The notes under the pieces: model-generated | Seen by the model: the letters and a program-made list of their open reading frames with translations, nothing else | What the model was told of the DNA's origin: nothing | Database searches by the model: none | Position numbers and translations under genes: made by a program | Shown here: positions 31,870 to 41,431 of the stretch, piece after piece | How the letters are laid out: each line of letters starts with the position of its first letter | How positions within the stretch are numbered: the stretch's first letter is position 1 | Source: Xanthobacter flavus | GTDB taxonomy: Bacteria; Pseudomonadota; Alphaproteobacteria; Rhizobiales; Xanthobacteraceae | DNA length: 64,000 nt | Assembly (NCBI RefSeq): GCF_017875275.1 | Contig: NZ_JAGGML010000001.1 | Span: 5,105,001 to 5,169,000, forward strand | Direction of reading: 5' to 3'

Positions 31870-32901
31870 TCAGCGCACGGCCTCGGCCAGATCGGCAAAG
31901 ATGCGGAACACCAGCGCCTTGCGATCGAGATTGAAGACATCCGCCTCGGCCGCGCTGCGCCGCACCTTCTCCCACACCTCGCCGAGGCGGACAAGGCGAT
32001 GGCGGGGCACGTCCGCGTCAGTGGCCTGCGCGGCCACATAGTCGCTCACCGCCTCGACGAAGAGATCGAGCCCGTCCGCCCGGTCGCCCTGGAGCCGCGT
32101 GCCCAGCGCGTGAAGGTCTTCCGGGCGCGGGCGGGGCAACTGGCCCAAGGCCTTGAGGGTGGCGAGGCGCACCTCCATCCCCTCCCCCCGCGCCAGCGTC
32201 ACGGCGCGGCGCACGCTGCCGCCCGAGGCCTGCGCGGCGGCGGGAAGCTCGGCGGCGTTCAGGTCGCCGATCTCGGTGGAAAGATGATCCAGCGCCGCCA
32301 GCACGTCGCCTTCCGCGAGCGCCCTAAGCCGCAGCAGGCGCGAGCGCGAGCGGATGGTGGCCAGCACCTTGCCGGGGGCGTGGGTGATGAGCAGGAACAG
32401 CGCGCGCGGGGGCGGCTCCTCCAGCGTCTTCAGCAAGGCATTGGCGCCGAAGGCGTTCAGCTCGTCCACGGCATCGACGATGCACACCCGCCAGCCGCCG
32501 GCCGCCGCCGTGGCGCCGAAGAAGCTGCGCACCCGCCGCACCATCTCGGCCGGGATGACGGTGGGGATCTTCTCCTCCCCCGCCTCCGGCGCGCGGCGCA
32601 GCACCAGCATGTCGGGGTGACTCATGGAGGCCACCTGCCGGAACACCGGATGGCTCGGCGGCAGGCTGAGATCGTGCGCGCCCGGCTCCGGCCCGCCGGC
32701 CAGCACCACGCGGGCCAGGCGATAGGCCAGCGTCGCCTTGCCGATACCCTCCGGCCCGCCGATGAGCAGGGCATGAGGCAGGCGCCCGGCGCGGAAGTCG
32801 CCCAGCAGGTCAGCCTCCACCGCCGCATGGCCGAACAGGCGGGTCTGCTCGCGCGGATGCGGCGCGCCCGGCAGGACGTCCCCGGCGATCTCGCCGCTCA
32901 T
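31870..32901 (-). CDS. holB: DNA polymerase III subunit delta'
   Basis: This 343-residue AAA+ clamp-loader subunit has a Walker A-like [10 protein letters not shown] (about 48-57) and the sensor-type [20 protein letters not shown]. These fit delta' proteins, whose ATP site is usually inactive. It forms part of the replisome clamp loader with the gamma/tau and delta subunits. It overlaps tmk by four bases and precedes metG, the common bacterial order tmk-holB. Confidence 0.93.
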
Positions 32902-33575
32902 GCGCCCGCCATGGCGTAGGTGTCGGCGATTTCGCGCGGACCAAGCCCGAGGCGGGTGGCCACCGCGTCGGCGATGGCGGCCGCGACCGCATCGGCGTCG
33001 GCCGACGCATCAATGAGCACGCAGCGCCCGGGCTCCGCCTCCGCCCGCGCGAGGAAGGCGGCGCGCACCGCGGCGTGATAATCCCCGCCTTCCTTCTCGA
33101 ACCGGTCCGCCGCGGCCCCCGCCGCCCGCTTCGCAGCGCGGGCGAGGCCGATCTCCGGCGGCACGTCGAGCATCAGGGTGAGGTCGGGCCGCACGGTGCC
33201 GACCGAAAGCGCTTCCAGCGCATCGAGAAGCCCCGGCGCCACGGCGCCGACCGCGCCCTGATAGACGCGGGTGGAATCGATGAAGCGGTCACACACCACG
33301 ATCTTGCCGGCCGCGAGCGCGGGCGCGATGAGCCCCGCCACATGGTCCGCCCGCGCGGCGGCGAAGAGCATCGCCTCGGCCGTGGGGCCGAACGGTTCGG
33401 CCGCGCCGGAGAGGATGACATGGCGCAGGGCCTCCGCACCGGGCGTGCCACCGGGCTCGCGGGTTTCCACCACCTCGCGGCCGAGCGCCCGCAGATGCTG
33501 CGCCAGACGCCGCGCCTGCGTGGACTTGCCAGTGCCCTCCCCGCCTTCGAGGGTGATGAACCGCCCGCCGCTCAT
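32898..33575 (-). CDS. tmk: thymidylate kinase
   Basis: This 225-residue P-loop kinase starts MSGGRFITLEGGEGTGKSTQA, has the acceptor motif ETREPGGTPGAE and the DRFIDSTRVYQG segment that replaces the DRY motif, and carries the LID region around AKRAAGAAADRFE. It phosphorylates dTMP to dTDP. It overlaps holB and the upstream DacF-like gene by four bases each, so the three are translationally coupled. Confidence 0.96.
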   Translation of the reverse strand: MSGGRFITLEGGEGTGKSTQARRLAQHLRALGREVVETREPGGTPGAEALRHVILSGAAEPFGPTAEAMLFAAARADHVAGLIAPALAAGKIVVCDRFIDSTRVYQGAVGAVAPGLLDALEALSVGTVRPDLTLMLDVPPEIGLARAAKRAAGAAADRFEKEGGDYHAAVRAAFLARAEAEPGRCVLIDASADADAVAAAIADAVATRLGLGPREIADTYAMAGA

Positions 33576-34810
33576 TTGCCGACCTTCGCGAGGGCCTTCT
33601 TCATCAGGTCGCGCACGCTGTCGCCCATCAGCGTCATGCCGCCGTCGAGGGCACGGTCCACGAGCGAGCCCACCGGCACGTCCTCCGCCGTGTAGAGCGG
33701 AATGTCCAGGGCCTTCACCTGCCCGCGCGTCACCTGCATGCGCCCCACCTCCGTGCCCTTGGCGACAGGAGCCCGAAGCGGTCCGGTGTAGACCACGCGG
33801 GCGGTGACGCGCTCATTTCCCGAGCGCGGGGTGAGGATGGAGACCGGCCCCTTCGCCACGAGCCCGACCGACCCTTGCGAACCGCCGAACACCTGGGCCC
33901 GGCCGATCTCCTGATCCGCCGTGAAGATCTGCCGCTGGCGGAAGGACTGGAAGCCCCATTCCAGCAGCTTGCGCGTCTCATCCAGCCGCTCCTTCTCGCT
34001 CCGCGCGCCGAGGGTGGCGACGATGAGGCGCTGGCCGTTCTGCACCGCCGAGCCGAGGGCGTGGTAGCCCACATCCTTCACCCAGCCCACCTGAAGGCCA
34101 TCGGCACCGAGGCCGGCATCCAGCAGCACATTGCGATTGCGCTGCTTGATGCGGCTCCATTCGATGTTGGGGCGGGCGAACACGGGGTAATAGGTGGGAT
34201 AGGTGCGGATGATGTGGGCGGCGAGCAGTCCGAGGTCGCGCGCCGTGGAATATTGGCCAGAATCGGCGAAGCCGGTGGCGTTGTGGAACTCGGAATTGGC
34301 CATGCCGATGGCCTTGGCCTCGGCATTCATCATCTGGGAAAACTCGCTCTCGGTGTTGGCGACGCCCTCGGCCAGCGCGATGGCCGCATCATTGCCCGAC
34401 ACCACCAGCGCGCCCGCCAGCAGCTCGCCCACCGGGGCCGGCTTGTTCACCTCGGCGAACATGGCCGCACCGCCCGAGGGGCCGCCGCCGCGCTTCCAGG
34501 CGTTCACGCTCACCATGAACGGCGTGTCGAGGGCGATCTTGCCGGCCTTGAGCTGGGCGAAGACCACATCCGCGGTCATCACCTTGGTGAGCGTGCCGGG
34601 GGCGAAGCGCTTGTCCGCATCCTTCTCGTACAGGATCGTGCCGGTCTCGAAATCGATCAGCGCGGCGGCGGGAACCGAGGTCTGGAAGCCCTGCGCCTGC
34701 TGGGCGGACGCCGGCAGGGGCGCACACGCGATGGCGATCAGCGCCAGCGCGACGGCGGGACGGGTGAGCGCGGCGAAAAGGCGGGAGGCGAAGCGGGAGG
34801 GCACGGACAT
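33572..34810 (-). CDS. DacF/DacC-like D-Ala-D-Ala carboxypeptidase homologue with altered active-site motifs
   Basis: This 412-residue exported protein has a signal peptide (about 1-37, ending ASAQQ) and the low-molecular-mass penicillin-binding protein fold with a C-terminal beta-rich domain. The SxxK motif reads PGTLTKVMT, so the nucleophile position (residue 73) is Thr, with Lys76 kept. The SxN motif is present (SGN, 128-130). The KTG motif reads QVG (240-242) in DGLQVGWVKDVGY. Two of three catalytic motifs are therefore changed, and it may be a non-catalytic or weakly active homologue. It overlaps tmk by four bases and follows rlpA. Confidence 0.85.
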   Translation of the reverse strand: MSVPSRFASRLFAALTRPAVALALIAIACAPLPASAQQAQGFQTSVPAAALIDFETGTILYEKDADKRFAPGTLTKVMTADVVFAQLKAGKIALDTPFMVSVNAWKRGGGPSGGAAMFAEVNKPAPVGELLAGALVVSGNDAAIALAEGVANTESEFSQMMNAEAKAIGMANSEFHNATGFADSGQYSTARDLGLLAAHIIRTYPTYYPVFARPNIEWSRIKQRNRNVLLDAGLGADGLQVGWVKDVGYHALGSAVQNGQRLIVATLGARSEKERLDETRKLLEWGFQSFRQRQIFTADQEIGRAQVFGGSQGSVGLVAKGPVSILTPRSGNERVTARVVYTGPLRAPVAKGTEVGRMQVTRGQVKALDIPLYTAEDVPVGSLVDRALDGGMTLMGDSVRDLMKKALAKVGK

Positions 34811-34980: not shown

Positions 34981-35889
34981 TCAGCGTTCTCCCGGCACCC
35001 CGGCGAAGCCGAGGCCGGAGACGGGCGCGGAGCCCTGCGACCAGCCGGCGCTGGCCACCACCTGCCCGGAGCTTCCCGCCTGGCCGAGATCGTAGGGCCG
35101 CGACGGCGGCACCGGCGCCTCGCCCGTCGGAACCGCGGCAGCGGCGACGCTGCGGATGGAGGGGCCTTCCGGCACGAAGGGCTTGGCCGAGGCCACGCGC
35201 ACCGGCGAGCCCTCGATCAGGTCGGCCGGGGTGCCATCGGTGCGCAGGGTGGAGGCGAGCTTGATGTCGTCGTCGTCGTCCAGCGGCGCGCGGCCGAGAT
35301 ACTGCACACGCACCCGCGCGACGCCGTTCTTGGCGAAGCCGAGCAGTTCGGCCGTCTTGTAGGACACGTCGATGAGGCGGTCGCCCACATAGGGCCCGCG
35401 ATTGTTGACGCGCACCACGATGGAGCGGTCGTTGGACAGGTTCGTCACCCGCACGTAGGACGGCATGGGCAGCGTCTTGTGGGCGGCGGAGATGGACGCC
35501 ATGTCGAAGATCTCGCCATTGGCGGTCTTCCGGCCGTGGAAATCCTTGCCGTACCAGGACGCCTGCCCTTCGGCCACGTAATTGGGGTTTTCCGCCGGGA
35601 AATAGGTGCGCCCGCCGATGGTGTAGGGCTTGCCCACCTTGTAGCCGCCACCGCCGCGCGGCACGGGATCACCCTCCGCGACCACGCGCGGGCTGGTGGA
35701 CACGCCCCAGATGGGATCGATCTTGCTGCCGAGGGATTCGACCGAGCCGCAGCCCGCGACCGCGACGAGGGAGGAGAGCACCGCCAAGGTCCGCAGCCTG
35801 CGGATGGATGGCGCCGCCCCCGCGCCTGCGACGGCGCGCACGAGGTGACTGATCCTGTTCCGCTGCGTCCCCGCCGATCCCGTCATCAT
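34981..35889 (-). CDS. rlpA: RlpA-like septal ring lipoprotein (double-psi beta-barrel)
   Basis: This 302-residue predicted lipoprotein (VAVAGCGSVES, Cys near residue 47) has a double-psi beta-barrel with the RlpA motifs GQASWYGKDFHGRKTANGE and VVRVNNRGPYVGDRLIDVS. RlpA proteins cleave denuded glycan strands in the septum or bind there. No SPOR domain follows; instead the C-terminal third is low-complexity. Adjacent starts at 35889 and 35886 are equivalent. It is upstream of the DacF-like gene, so the pair forms an envelope unit. Confidence 0.9.
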   Translation of the reverse strand: MMTGSAGTQRNRISHLVRAVAGAGAAPSIRRLRTLAVLSSLVAVAGCGSVESLGSKIDPIWGVSTSPRVVAEGDPVPRGGGGYKVGKPYTIGGRTYFPAENPNYVAEGQASWYGKDFHGRKTANGEIFDMASISAAHKTLPMPSYVRVTNLSNDRSIVVRVNNRGPYVGDRLIDVSYKTAELLGFAKNGVARVRVQYLGRAPLDDDDDIKLASTLRTDGTPADLIEGSPVRVASAKPFVPEGPSIRSVAAAAVPTGEAPVPPSRPYDLGQAGSSGQVVASAGWSQGSAPVSGLGFAGVPGER

Positions 35890-36193
35890 CCGTGCCCGGT
35901 TCCCCGCTTTTGCTGCCGCCGGCAGAGACAGAACGCATCGCGCCGCGATCAGCAAGGACCCCGGCAGATTGCGCCAACAGGGGGTCCAATGACGGCGAAA
36001 ATGGGGCGCCGCCGCGGCCATGGTTAACGATCGGCAATAATGACACCCATTCGGATACCGCGCCCGGCATCCTCCGGAGCCCTTGGACCGCTCTCGCCCG
36101 CCTATCCCCGCCTCCCGCGCCCGCACCTCTCGACGCGCCCGCGCACCTGCTCTAGATGGAACCGTCAAGCGTCCCGCCCCGCACGCGGGACCT

Positions 36194-36283
36194 GGAAGGG
36201 TGGCCGAGTGGTTTAAGGCAGCGGTCTTGAAAACCGCCGTGGGGGCAACCCCACCGTGGGTTCGAATCCCACCCCTTCCGCCA
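36194..36283 (+). tRNA. tRNA-Ser (anticodon TGA)
   Basis: A complete 90-base tRNA has acceptor stem GGAAGGG/CCCTTCC, D-loop GGCCGAGTGGTTTAAGG, anticodon TGA in CTTGAAAAC, a long class II variable arm (TGGGGGCAACCCCA) and T-arm GGTTCGAATCC. CCA is encoded at 36281-36283. It reads UCN serine codons. The adjacent gene to the right is a serine recombinase reading toward it, so its 3' end is the likely integration site of the island. Confidence 0.98.
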
Positions 36284-37773
36284 TTTGAGTCCCTGAGTGG
36301 GCACTGCGTTTACGCCATTCCCCGATACCAGCGTCTGAAGCAGCCGGGATTTTGATCCCATGATCCGAACCTCGCCCTCGGCAACCTCGACGCGCTGGGC
36401 GAGCGCGCGGAGGTGGTCGCGGCGATAGCCGCCGCCTTCTAGTCGGATGCGCTGACGCGCGGCCTTCGCGAATTTGCTCAGCATCTCCGGCGTAACGGCC
36501 TTGCTCCCGGCGTTCTGGAGCATGGCCTGGGCGCGTTCGGCGTCAGCCTTGGCCTGATCGCGGATAGCTTTGAGGCCGACGATGCGGTCCTTCAGCGCCG
36601 GGTCGTCCAGATCGGCGACGCCGGCCTCTATGGCGTCATAAAGCCGCCTGAGGCGGGCTTCAGACTCGGCTGCACGCCTGTTCAACTCGGCGATATGCTC
36701 GCGCTGGCGCTCGGATCGCTCCTGCCGCCGGTCGAGCACTGTGGCGAGAATCGTTTCCAATCGTTCGGGCTGTAGCAGGCGTAGTAACGGTAGCGTCCGC
36801 CCTTGCCGGTGCGGATGGTCATGGCGCCGCCGCACTTGGCGCAATGGATAAGCCCGGTCAGCATGGTCGGGCCGCTGGTCACGGCGGATGGCGTCACCCT
36901 GGGATGTCGCGCCTTGAGGAGCGTCTGCACGGTGTCGAAGGTCTCGCGGCTGATGATCGGCGGCACGGGCACGACAACGATCTCGCTGACCGGCTTCAGC
37001 TCCTTGGTCTTGGACCGCTTATTGAACTCATGTTCGCCCATATAGGTGCGCCGGGTCAGGATGCGGTGAACCTGTCCGATGCCCCAACGCCCGCCGTCGC
37101 GCGTGAAGATGCGGCGTTTGTTCAGATAGGACACGATGTTCTTGACGCCCATCTGGCCGGTGGTGCCGTCGCCTTCAAGGGCGAGCCGATAGATCAGCCG
37201 CACGGTCTCGGCGTGGAGCGGGTCGATCTCCAGCTTCTTCTTGGTCTTCGCCCCGCGCTGCTCGGCCGCGACGATGCGATAGCCGATCGGCGGCAGGGCG
37301 CCATTCCAGAAGCCTTGCCGGGCATTCTCCTTCAAGGCCCGCATCACATGCTTGGCGTTCTCCTTCGACTGATACTCGTCGAACAGCGCCATGATCTGCC
37401 GCATCATGACGTGCATGGGGTCATCCCCCATTTCCTGCGTGATCGAGACGAGCTTGACGCCGTTCTTCGCCAGCTTGCGGACGTAGAATTCCAGCTCGAA
37501 GTGATCACGGAAGAAGCGGCTGAACGAGTGGACGATCACCACGTCGAAGGGCGCGGGCTTGGACGTGCCCGCTTCGATCATCCGCTGGAACTCGGGGCGG
37601 CGATCATTGGTGGCCGATGCGCCCGGCTCCACATAGGTCTCAAACAGCTGGTAGCCTCGCGCGGCGCACCAGGCTTCCCCCTGGCGTCTCTGGTCGGGGA
37701 TGGAGACATCGTGCTCGGCCTGGCGCACCGTCGAGACGCGCAGATAGAGGGCGGCGCGCAAAGGTGCGGTCAT
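36284..37773 (-). pseudogene. large serine recombinase, broken by deletion and frameshift
   Basis: The first 335 or so codons encode a resolvase/invertase catalytic domain (YLRVSTVRQAEHDVSIPDQR, Ser in LRVST; then VHSFSRFFRDHFE) and a recombinase domain. Near 36765-36785 the frame breaks, just after the zinc-ribbon start (CAKCGG, YRYYAC). The remainder (LQPERLETILATVLDRRQER, then a coiled coil and C-terminal domain) continues in another frame. About 30-35 residues expected between these parts are missing, so this is a deletion that also changed frame. The C-terminal frame stays open through the antisense of the tRNA. It probably integrated the island and is now inactive. Confidence 0.85.
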
Positions 37774-38741: not shown

Positions 38742-39286
38742 AGCACATGGAGACCCGTCTGCCCAGTCCATTCGGATGGAAAGCGGTTCCTGCGGGGCTC
38801 CTGAAGGCTGAGAGCCATGGCGCACATTCGGCGGAACGCACCTTTTGGACATCTCATTGAATTTGCAACGAAAAATGATTTTTACTTGCCTCAGACTACG
38901 TTGGGAAATCTCCGCGCACATTGCCCATGCGAACCCTAACCCATTGAAACGCCAACAACCGACCCAACGCGCAATGTGTGGGCTTTTATCCTGCACTCAA
39001 GCCCCTACGCCGGTACCCTACGAAATCGCCGCCGACCGCCCTAAGGGAAATCCGCCTTACGGCCCCACTGGCGCGGGGGTGGATCGTCGCGATACCTTCA
39101 ACACATGCACGGATGACATGCCGGCTGTTGAAGGGACTTCATGCGGACCTGGATGCGTTGCGGGTGCAGAATGTGCGCTCTTCCACCGCACCGCGCGCAG
39201 CGATGTGGCGGCGGAAAATGTGCGGCCGACGCGCCGAGTCGGTGCATGAGAAACGCTATGCAACAGGAGATCGGGGCGACACGGAA
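38742..39286. other. 545-bp region between antitoxin and hsdR without a supported gene
   Basis: No conserved protein is seen on either strand. A frame continuous with hsdR runs back to 38978, but its translation is low-complexity and resembles no HsdR N-terminus. The part at about 38845-38915 is distinctly AT-rich (for example GAAAAATGATTTTTACTTG) and may hold the hsdR promoter. No inverted repeats of note were found. Confidence 0.5.
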
Positions 39287-41431
39287 TTGACCAACGAGGC
39301 GTTCGCCCGGATCAAGATCGACCAGCTCCTCAAGGATGCCGCATGGCGCCTGACGGATGGTCGCAGCGTCAGATATGAATACCCGCTCGATGACGGCGGC
39401 CGGGCGGACTATGTGCTGTTCGATCGCCTCGGCCGTGCGGTTGCCGTGCTGGAGGCGAAGAGCACGAGTGTCAGCCTGACGGCGGGCGAGGCGCAGGGGC
39501 GGCGCTATGCCGATCTGCTCGGCGTGCCCTTTATCTTTCTCTCGAACGGCGAAGAAATCTGGTTCTGCGACAAGGGGCAGGATGCGCACTTCCGCCGGGT
39601 GGAGACCCTTTTCAGTCAGGATGATCTCGTGCGCCGAAAGGCAGCGCGCGACATCCGTCGCAATCCGCTCGACATCCCGATCGACAGCCGCATCGCTGGC
39701 GGCGGCGGGCGCCACCATCAAAGCGCCTGCATCGAAACCCTCTGCCGAGGGATCGTCAGCGGCCGGCGGAAAATGCTGGTTGAGATGGCGACCGGCACCG
39801 GAAAGACGCGCATGGCGGCCGCGTTGATCAAGCGCCTGTTCGATGCCAATTGGTCAACGCGCGCGCTGTTCGTCGTTGATCGCAACACCCTCGCCATCCA
39901 GGCGGAGGACGCTTTTGCCGAGCATCTGCCGCATCTTCCGTGCTACCGCGTGCCGCGCACCGGGCGCCGCTTTCAGGATGAAAAGCGGGTGACGATTGTC
40001 ACGCTCCAGACGCTCGTGAATGAGTATGAGAAATATTCGGCCGGCTATTTCGATCTCATCCTCATCGATGAATGCCACCGCAGCATCTACGGCCAGTGGC
40101 GGCGCGCGCTGGACCATTTCGACGGCATCAAGATCGGCCTCACCGCCACGCCCTGCGTCATGCGGGACGCGCCGGATGTGGACGAGGAGGACCGCACCGC
40201 GATCCGCGACACGTTGCGCTTCTTCGAGGTGGACCGCCCGACCTACAGCTACAGCATGGCCGAGGCGATCGCGGACGGCCATCTCGTTCCCTATGAAATC
40301 TACCGGGCAATGACCGCTCGCACGGCGGCCACCGACGGGTTCACTGTTGCGCGCACCGACATTGATTGGGGCGCACTGGATGCGGAAACCCGCGCCGAAC
40401 TGGAAGCGCTGTTTGCGGATCATGATCCGCTCACCGTCGATCCCACCGCGCTTGAGCGGAAGTTCACCATCCCCGAGCGCAACCGTGCCATGGTGCGTGA
40501 GTTTCGCGAGGTACTGGAGAACGGCTATACCGCGCCGAGCGGGATTCGCCGTGCGCCGGAATGGGGCAAGACCATCGTGTTCGCGGTCACCAAACGCCAT
40601 GCGGAGACGCTGGCGCGCATGTTTGATGATGTCTTCGCCGACAAGAAGCCGAGCCCCACCACGCGCTATGCCGACTTCGTCGTGTCAGGCATGGGGCCGG
40701 ACGACAGCGTGGACGGCAACGCCAAGATCAAGCGGTTCAAGAATGAGCCGTTCCCGCAGATCCTGGTCAGCGTGAACATGCTGGACACCGGGTTCGATTG
40801 CCCGGAGGTGCGCAATCTGGTGATGGCGCGCTTCACCCATTCGTCGATCCTCTACCAGCAGATGCGCGGCCGGGGCACGCGGCAGGCGCCGGGGAAGGAT
40901 CGCTTCACTTTGTGGGATTTCACCGGCGTCACCCTGCGCCATGGTGATGACGAGGCGCCGGGCGAAGGCGGGGCGGTTGTGGTGCGCCCTGCGGAACGGC
41001 CGCAGGGCCAGCCGCGCCGTATGCTGACGCTGGATGTGCATGATGAGATCGACCCCGCCACCCGCGAATGGGTGACGGTGGATGAAACCGGGCGCGCTTT
41101 CATGGACCCGGAGGAAGCCCGCGCCGAAGCCTTGGGAGCGGCGTTCGAGACCTGGCTGGACGGCCAGTCGTTCGACACCGACCAGTTGCGGCTGCTGCAT
41201 CTCATCAAGGAGCAGATCAAGGCCAATGCGGCCGAACTCACCAGCTTCGAAAGCTGGCGCTTTGACCAGCCGCCCCTTGCCATGAATAGCGGGTTCGCCC
41301 GCGGCTGTGCGGTGTTCGGCGGCGAGAGCGAACTGGAGCAGGTGCTCGCCAGCCTGAACAGGAGTGTGTTCGGCATCGCCAGCACGGGCAGCACGCCCGA
41401 TCCGGAAAACCCAGACCAACCCGCCAATTGA
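39287..41431 (+). CDS. hsdR: type I restriction enzyme, R subunit
   Basis: This is a 714-residue EcoEI-type HsdR if it starts at the TTG at 39287 (LTNEAFARIKIDQLLKDAAW), the first residue of the conserved part; GTG at 39242 is an alternative. The PD-(D/E)xK nuclease motif is GRADYVLF...VLEAK (about 40-65). The helicase motifs are ATGTGKTRMA (about 165), LIDECHRS (DEAD box), GLTATP and QMRGRGTR. With HsdM and HsdS it would cleave unmodified DNA after translocation. It looks intact, but its partners are truncated or missing, so it is probably non-functional. hsdM follows at once. Confidence 0.9.
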   Translation: MTNEAFARIKIDQLLKDAAWRLTDGRSVRYEYPLDDGGRADYVLFDRLGRAVAVLEAKSTSVSLTAGEAQGRRYADLLGVPFIFLSNGEEIWFCDKGQDAHFRRVETLFSQDDLVRRKAARDIRRNPLDIPIDSRIAGGGGRHHQSACIETLCRGIVSGRRKMLVEMATGTGKTRMAAALIKRLFDANWSTRALFVVDRNTLAIQAEDAFAEHLPHLPCYRVPRTGRRFQDEKRVTIVTLQTLVNEYEKYSAGYFDLILIDECHRSIYGQWRRALDHFDGIKIGLTATPCVMRDAPDVDEEDRTAIRDTLRFFEVDRPTYSYSMAEAIADGHLVPYEIYRAMTARTAATDGFTVARTDIDWGALDAETRAELEALFADHDPLTVDPTALERKFTIPERNRAMVREFREVLENGYTAPSGIRRAPEWGKTIVFAVTKRHAETLARMFDDVFADKKPSPTTRYADFVVSGMGPDDSVDGNAKIKRFKNEPFPQILVSVNMLDTGFDCPEVRNLVMARFTHSSILYQQMRGRGTRQAPGKDRFTLWDFTGVTLRHGDDEAPGEGGAVVVRPAERPQGQPRRMLTLDVHDEIDPATREWVTVDETGRAFMDPEEARAEALGAAFETWLDGQSFDTDQLRLLHLIKEQIKANAAELTSFESWRFDQPPLAMNSGFARGCAVFGGESELEQVLASLNRSVFGIASTGSTPDPENPDQPAN

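Follow-up and report, generated by a model that had tools for sequence, protein, structure and literature searches.

The dac gene of a Xanthobacter genome on one contig codes for a protein that is a PBP5-family member by descent but, judged by its sequence, has lost residues on which catalysis in this family depends, and it very probably lacks carboxypeptidase activity. From alignments and trees, losses of catalytic residues appear to have occurred many separate times within the order Hyphomicrobiales. In Xanthobacter the degenerate gene is under strong purifying constraint, with dN/dS far below 1, and a selected, non-catalytic role for degenerate Dac is likely. PBP5 is the standard example of a D,D-carboxypeptidase, and it has long been unclear whether it does anything besides trimming D-Ala; a non-catalytic PBP5 role now becomes directly testable in tractable, non-pathogenic bacteria (Xanthobacter, Azorhizobium). 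Furthermore, the annotation "D-alanyl-D-alanine carboxypeptidase" is probably functionally wrong for many loci of the order (81 of the 216 read, a non-random sample). Our gradings of the activity loss, the non-catalytic role and the scaffold mechanism are judgements, not computed values.

The dac locus and the active site of its product

The window, by which we mean the whole stretch of 64,000 nucleotides that was analysed, contains a minus-strand run of rlpA, dac, tmk and a holB-like gene. Residues of Dac were placed by alignment to E. coli PBP5, and the features are as follows.

34981-35838, minus strand: rlpA, DPBB_1 lytic transglycosylase domain (Pfam; limits are those of the stretch scanned, not of a start codon)
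35401-35403, minus strand: AAT, Asn in the RlpA motif N-D-R-G-P, here NNRGP (alignment)
33572-34810, minus strand: dac, degenerate PBP5-type protein of 412 aa, with Peptidase_S11 at residues 43-270 and PBP5_C at 290-379
34592-34594, minus strand: ACG, Thr73 at the catalytic serine position (PBP5 Ser44)
34583-34585, minus strand: AAG, Lys76, the SxxK lysine, kept (PBP5 Lys47)
34466-34468, minus strand: GCG, Ala115 at PBP5 Ser87
34391-34399, minus strand: Ser138-Gly139-Asn140, SGN kept
34085-34093, minus strand: CAG GTG GGC, Gln240-Val241-Gly242 in place of PBP5 Lys213-Thr214-Gly215 (KTG)
34082-34084, minus strand: TGG, Trp243 at PBP5 His216
32898-33575, minus strand: tmk, thymidylate kinase, its ATG overlapping the dac stop by 4 bp (33572-33575)
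31870-32901, minus strand: holB-like gene, DNA polymerase III delta subunit domain (PF13177), the next gene of the run

The dac frame is translated without any inner stop; its start was taken as 34810, with an in-frame ATG 45 bp upstream (34855) as a possible alternative. The full length of the gene and its coupling to tmk, both claimed in a preliminary description of this DNA, were confirmed. The description had also called the product DacF-like, which proved a loose label for a protein with the domain architecture of PBP5/DacA. Pfam gave Peptidase_S11 (PF00768, E 3.2e-55), the PBP5_C stem domain (PF07943, E 5.4e-19) and Beta-lactamase2 only, with no LytM domain; for PBP5_C, this protein is the sole match in its own genome at E <= 1. 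The AlphaFold2 model has a mean pLDDT of 85.2, dropping below 50 at residues 1-38 and in the final four, its best Foldseek match is P. aeruginosa PBP5 4k91 with a TM of 0.87 (target length), and a PBP5 fold is predicted with fair confidence. The N-terminus, judged by eye, is hydrophobic and ends in ASA, and the C-terminal tail forms helices 383-394 and 397-410 in the model, with low confidence there.

PBP5-type D,D-carboxypeptidases need the serine of SxxK and the KTG motif, and here these are replaced by Thr73 and by QVG at 240-242, respectively; the SxxK lysine and SGN, which they also need, are present, and PBP5 Arg198 is kept at position 226. Both replacements and both retained elements had been described before and hold after alignment, to which the changes at Ser87 (Ala115) and His216 (Trp243) are now added. 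Under the established serine mechanism, formation of an acyl-enzyme would have been lost, since the serine and the KTG lysine are both gone. A sequencing error or a mutation of one strain was excluded, because the KTG lysine is also absent from the 13 other Xanthobacter genomes read.

Distribution and routes of the losses

Among 61 genomes surveyed, all 14 of Xanthobacter lack the KTG lysine, and their serine position holds T in 9, S in 4 and A in 1. The wider clade comprises 22 members, from Xanthobacter, genus label g14 (which we take to be Azorhizobium), Aquabacter (g19) and genus labels g2 and g7. A clade comparison of Thr73 and Gln240 had been proposed in the preliminary description, and it gave a divided answer: absence of the KTG lysine is general (22/22, with Q in 18 and H in 4), but Thr itself is not conserved, the position being T, S, G or A. 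Trp occupies the PBP5 His216 position in 22/22 clade members and in 0/56 intact family members. In addition, 66 of the 81 columns that are near-invariant among the 56 intact members are kept in the clade and 15 are changed. Catalytic motif columns are over-represented among the changed ones (5/9 vs 10/72, Fisher p 0.009), in a test whose motif columns were hand-picked after the table was viewed and whose columns are not independent. Trp243, Ala115 and other new residues have reached fixation, or nearly so, in the clade.

These comparisons bear on whether the protein could still be an active carboxypeptidase that works in a different way, Thr73 serving as nucleophile and some other residue standing in for the KTG lysine. 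Thr is a chemically possible nucleophile, selection is strong in Xanthobacter, and Lys76, Asn140 and arginines 226 and 275 are kept in 22/22 clade members, with Ser138 in 20/22. However, close relatives carry Gly or Ala at the Thr73 position (7/22), the KTG threonine position varies (V, A, I, Q, T, E or M), and all 22 have Ala at PBP5 Ser87, where the 56 intact members have Ser in 55 and Thr in 1. Moreover, E. coli PBP5 S44G shows neither penicillin binding nor activity in the accessible part of PMC2909392. We regard such an enzyme as highly improbable.

At the level of the order, the serine, the SxxK lysine and the KTG lysine are not all present in 81 of the 216 loci that could be read, a proportion that is not a frequency because sampling favoured the window's family and high scorers. 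The affected loci fall into 27 of 109 genus labels and 12 of 43 family labels, counted as search-tool codes plus one NCBI name (L080). All three residues are kept at the other 135 of the 216 loci, so catalysis still matters in many lineages. In 66/66 alphaproteobacterial loci from outside the order, the eight motif positions examined (Ser, Lys, Ser87, Ser and Asn of SGN, and KTG) are all intact; tmk follows in 63 of these loci and rlpA precedes in 57. The searches used the GTDB order, whose borders may differ slightly from those of Hyphomicrobiales, the order of Xanthobacter. Matches were found in 284/291 genomes of the family search, 143/159 of the order search and 68/77 of the class search; not all were read, but in the class outside the order all 66 matched genomes were. 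The counts leave out named loci L081-L092 and L094-L138, duplicates (L003, L064, L065, L070-L079, L093, L232 and L239), a 20-base stub (L062), matches below 150 bits (paralogues and L061, the sole match of genome G053) and L053, where the contig ends before the motif.

The 81 degenerate loci were reached by unequal routes: the KTG lysine alone is lost in 43, together with the serine in 28, and the serine alone in 0; the SxxK lysine is lost with the KTG lysine kept in 7, and both lysines in 3. Every serine-less protein therefore also lacks the KTG lysine (28/28), and the reactive serine was not the first to go, since serine-only losses number none against 43 for the KTG lysine only. It has to be asked here whether loss of reactivity was itself selected, as a penicillin-insensitive version of an essentially structural protein that soil beta-lactams would otherwise jam. 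Such selection would explain why reactivity was lost repeatedly with the body of the protein kept, and it is compatible with a scaffold; the order of loss speaks against it, however, as do the paralogues in the same genomes, which keep reactive motifs where read, and we give it very little credence. A KTG-lysine mutant of PBP5 reportedly retained penicillin binding. The serine is still present in 53/81 degenerate proteins, and some of these may still acylate beta-lactams.

A further explanation takes its support from what is retained, namely that the degenerate protein binds D-Ala-D-Ala stems without cutting them and so protects pentapeptides for transpeptidation. Groove residues are mostly kept (Lys at 76 in 71/81, Asn at 140 in 76/81, Arg at 275 in 81/81), and a protective binding role has been proposed for E. 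coli PBP6a in the text available from PMC5596342. Against this, the KTG stretch is altered more than any other part, Ser at 138 survives in only 50/81, and PBP5 S44G is reported in the same partial text not to bind substrate (PMC5596342). By analogy, the S44G work, as far as the portions available go, argues against ordinary binding of pentapeptides by a protein that has lost the serine (PMC2909392, PMC5596342). Substrate protection is thus unlikely, though less so than the two explanations above.

A FastTree tree of 246 rows, computed without the active-site columns, requires at least 14 changes of state, and gives 17 all-lost clades when rooted on paralogue L001 if loss is irreversible; a maximum-likelihood tree of 110 representatives, likewise without these columns, requires a minimum of 13 changes. 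The number of losses is approximate, because support is patchy (24 starred and 44 open among 107 inner branches), some of the degenerate rows are long-branched, and minimum counts cannot separate loss from regain, genus g23 mixing intact and degenerate members. The losses look old, since every member read is degenerate in 25/27 affected genus labels, many of them single-member. As separate observations, four loci of family f33, genus g75 (L214, L215, L235 and L268) have Thr for the SxxK lysine and SGGD for SGND with KTG intact; and Asn stands at the catalytic serine in L188, L189, L151, L161, L060 and L327, which belong to genera g24 and g23 and family f11 and form three separate tree groups.

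Selective constraint and other S11 proteins

The YN00 estimates of dN/dS for Xanthobacter pairs were 0.024-0.055 for dac and 0.036-0.069 for tmk (8/9 pairs computable for each), compared with 0.027-0.062 for intact dac of other genera (5/10 pairs). By NG86, the nine Xanthobacter pairs gave 0.071-0.151 for dac and 0.103-0.234 for tmk; the pairs share branches and are not independent. For the three degenerate pairs outside Xanthobacter, where only NG86 gave dac values, dac vs tmk was 0.231/0.168, 0.183/0.174 and 0.052/0.098, dac being less constrained than tmk in two pairs and more in one. All 81 degenerate proteins read as a single full frame of 384-430 aa (median 415, start estimated), and tmk follows in 81/81 loci.

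In one representative genome for each of the 27 affected genus labels, the degenerate Dac is the only PBP5_C match (27/27), and a compensating second PBP5_C protein was found in none of them. These genomes hold 3 to 5 S11 matches each, 91 in total and 64 besides the dac locus. We read 22 of the 64, from 20/27 genomes, and all 22 have SxxK, S(A/G)N and KTG, so that D-Ala trimming can occur elsewhere. The window genome has two further S11 proteins, one with a SPOR domain. This one (L001, 361-2397, minus strand) has intact motifs, and its product is a candidate active enzyme at the denuded septal wall.

The paralogues also lend themselves to another interpretation, that relaxed selection is turning a redundant carboxypeptidase into a pseudogene while other S11 enzymes suffice. 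At least two other S11 matches occur in each of the 27 genomes, those read are intact, and the changes fall in the active site. Yet dac and the neighbouring tmk have similar dN/dS in Xanthobacter, the frame is full-size throughout, the losses look old and the new residues Trp243 and Ala115 are fixed; coupling to tmk, while it could preserve an open frame, would not preserve the amino-acid sequence. The dN/dS values and full length disfavour a pseudogene, and we consider decay quite improbable. Because the changes concentrate in catalytic motifs and new residues became fixed, the sequence pattern looks like repurposing, not decay.

RlpA, the proposed role and comparison with known systems

The preliminary description had placed rlpA just upstream of dac, which is correct and on the same strand, and had suggested RlpA as a partner. 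Part of this stands: rlpA is upstream of dac in 74/81 degenerate loci, but it also lies beside intact dac, E. coli included. A Dac-RlpA partnership is plausible, because P. aeruginosa RlpA binds the carboxypeptidase-class PBPs PBP4 and PBP7 according to the available part of PMC9712689. It is unproven, and we keep it tentative because in two Xanthobacter genomes (L346 and L347, genomes G003 and G013) rlpA is elsewhere in the genome and dac stays with tmk.

NNRGP in place of NDRGP was found in 12/220 RlpA rows adjoining dac, 11 from Xanthobacter and one from genus g7. It occurs only beside degenerate dac (12/74 rows, vs 0/146 beside intact dac, 4 of the 146 being unreadable there) and also in both Xanthobacter rlpA copies located away from dac; no correlation with degenerate dac is claimed, because possibly as few as two events are involved. 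The catalytic Asp of P. aeruginosa RlpA (D168) is Ser in E. coli RlpA, as stated in the accessible text of PMC9712689. D168 was placed through E. coli RlpA alone, at the IDVS stretch, because this protein has Ser there and keeps NDRGP. The window RlpA retains Asp at this stretch, and the idea that RlpA is dead too, with NNRGP as loss of the catalytic Asp, was dropped. The window RlpA may be altered, a conserved Asp of its DPBB domain aligning with Asn; loss of activity is not claimed. S. meliloti LppA (SMc00067, with a locus tag adjoining that of the putative carboxypeptidase SMc00068) was set aside, as the portion of text available does not link it to RlpA.

Beyond rlpA, a serine recombinase gene (Resolvase and Recombinase) lies at 36152-37773 on the minus strand, its C-terminal part seeming to continue in a second overlapping frame. 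It adjoins a tRNA-Ser (36194-36283), and a restriction-enzyme-like gene is at 38978-41431. Together these may represent an integrated island next to rlpA-dac-tmk.

Residue loss, recurrence, conservation, gene order, the single PBP5_C copy and intact paralogues (where read) can be taken from the sequences directly. The pseudo-enzyme of the preliminary description is well supported on these grounds and would extend far beyond a single gene. We lean towards degenerate Dac being a non-catalytic scaffold or regulator of cell-wall enzymes that is attached to the membrane and has arisen from PBP5 repeatedly; for a scaffold or regulator mechanism taken by itself, the chances are about even. A PBP5-type D,D-carboxypeptidase ancestor would have become a pseudoenzyme, keeping the fold, the PBP5_C stem and the C-terminal helical tail. 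The exported protein would sit on the inner membrane and oligomerise with, position or restrain other cell-wall enzymes, with RlpA, the two intact S11 carboxypeptidases and PBPs as candidate partners. Its former active-site groove may have been remodelled (Trp243, Ala115) to make a different contact, D-Ala trimming would be left to other S11 proteins, and the same conversion would have happened many times within Hyphomicrobiales. A scaffold role alone leaves the clustering of losses in this order unexplained. Members of the order are described as growing unipolarly in the part of PMC7327166 available.

A broader account, possible but with somewhat less than an even chance, is that the PBP5-type protein of rlpA-dac-tmk in Hyphomicrobiales fulfils a conserved, and possibly essential, task other than catalysis, one older than the losses. 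Carboxypeptidase activity would have been optional and discarded about a dozen times or more, the pseudo-PBPs would be scaffolds of growth and division, and the Xanthobacter RlpA may have begun to follow. Among the matches listed in our literature searches, no published account of such degenerate PBP5 proteins was found, a weak negative with subscription papers thinly covered.

The window Dac shares its domains and fold with E. coli PBP5 (DacA) and PBP6 (DacC) and with P. aeruginosa PBP5, and E. coli dacA adjoins rlpA as the window dac does. Compared with PBP5, it replaces the SxxK serine, Ser87, the KTG Lys and Thr, and His216. E. coli RlpA likewise lost a catalytic residue in the rlpA-dacA neighbourhood and is described as structural instead of catalytic in the partial text of PMC9712689; unlike in the window, the change there is in the other gene, at the Asp of the IDVS stretch.

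For A. tumefaciens, the text available from PMC9790009 names two genes with neighbouring locus tags, those of the D,D-carboxypeptidase Atu1499 and of RlpA (Atu1500), as each synthetically detrimental when the peptidoglycan-recycling transporter is lost. An Agrobacterium gene called dac, its locus unspecified in the accessible part, is synthetically lethal with loss of an LD-transpeptidase group (PMC11527210).

In Caulobacter, degenerate LytM proteins serve as hydrolase regulators, and in Agrobacterium they have a part in division and polarity, according to the parts available of PMC10336132 and PMC8416486. Degenerate Dac matches the pattern of non-catalytic hydrolase regulators, in which catalytic residues are lost, the fold is kept and the gene is under selection. 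It resembles EnvC, NlpD and DipM as a cell-wall peptidase fold without catalysis, DipM binding and stimulating autolysins in the text available. It differs in that the family is unrelated and that regulation, shown for those proteins, is inferred for Dac.

The closest laboratory parallel is E. coli PBP5 S44G, in which the catalytic serine is gone and the protein is made. In the portions of both sources available, this inactive protein changes cell shape by its presence, while absence of PBP5 hardly does (PMC2909392, PMC5596342). These results hint at a PBP5 role beyond trimming. In the partial text of PMC2909392, PBP5 placement depends on its own active site. Because S44G avoids midcell and fails to complement (PMC2909392, PMC5596342), a PBP5 without activity need not work as a scaffold. 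The S44G state, Gly at the serine position, occurs naturally in 6/22 clade members. Unlike the S44G mutation, the state seen in the window is natural, clade-wide, subject to selection and accompanied by loss of the KTG lysine.
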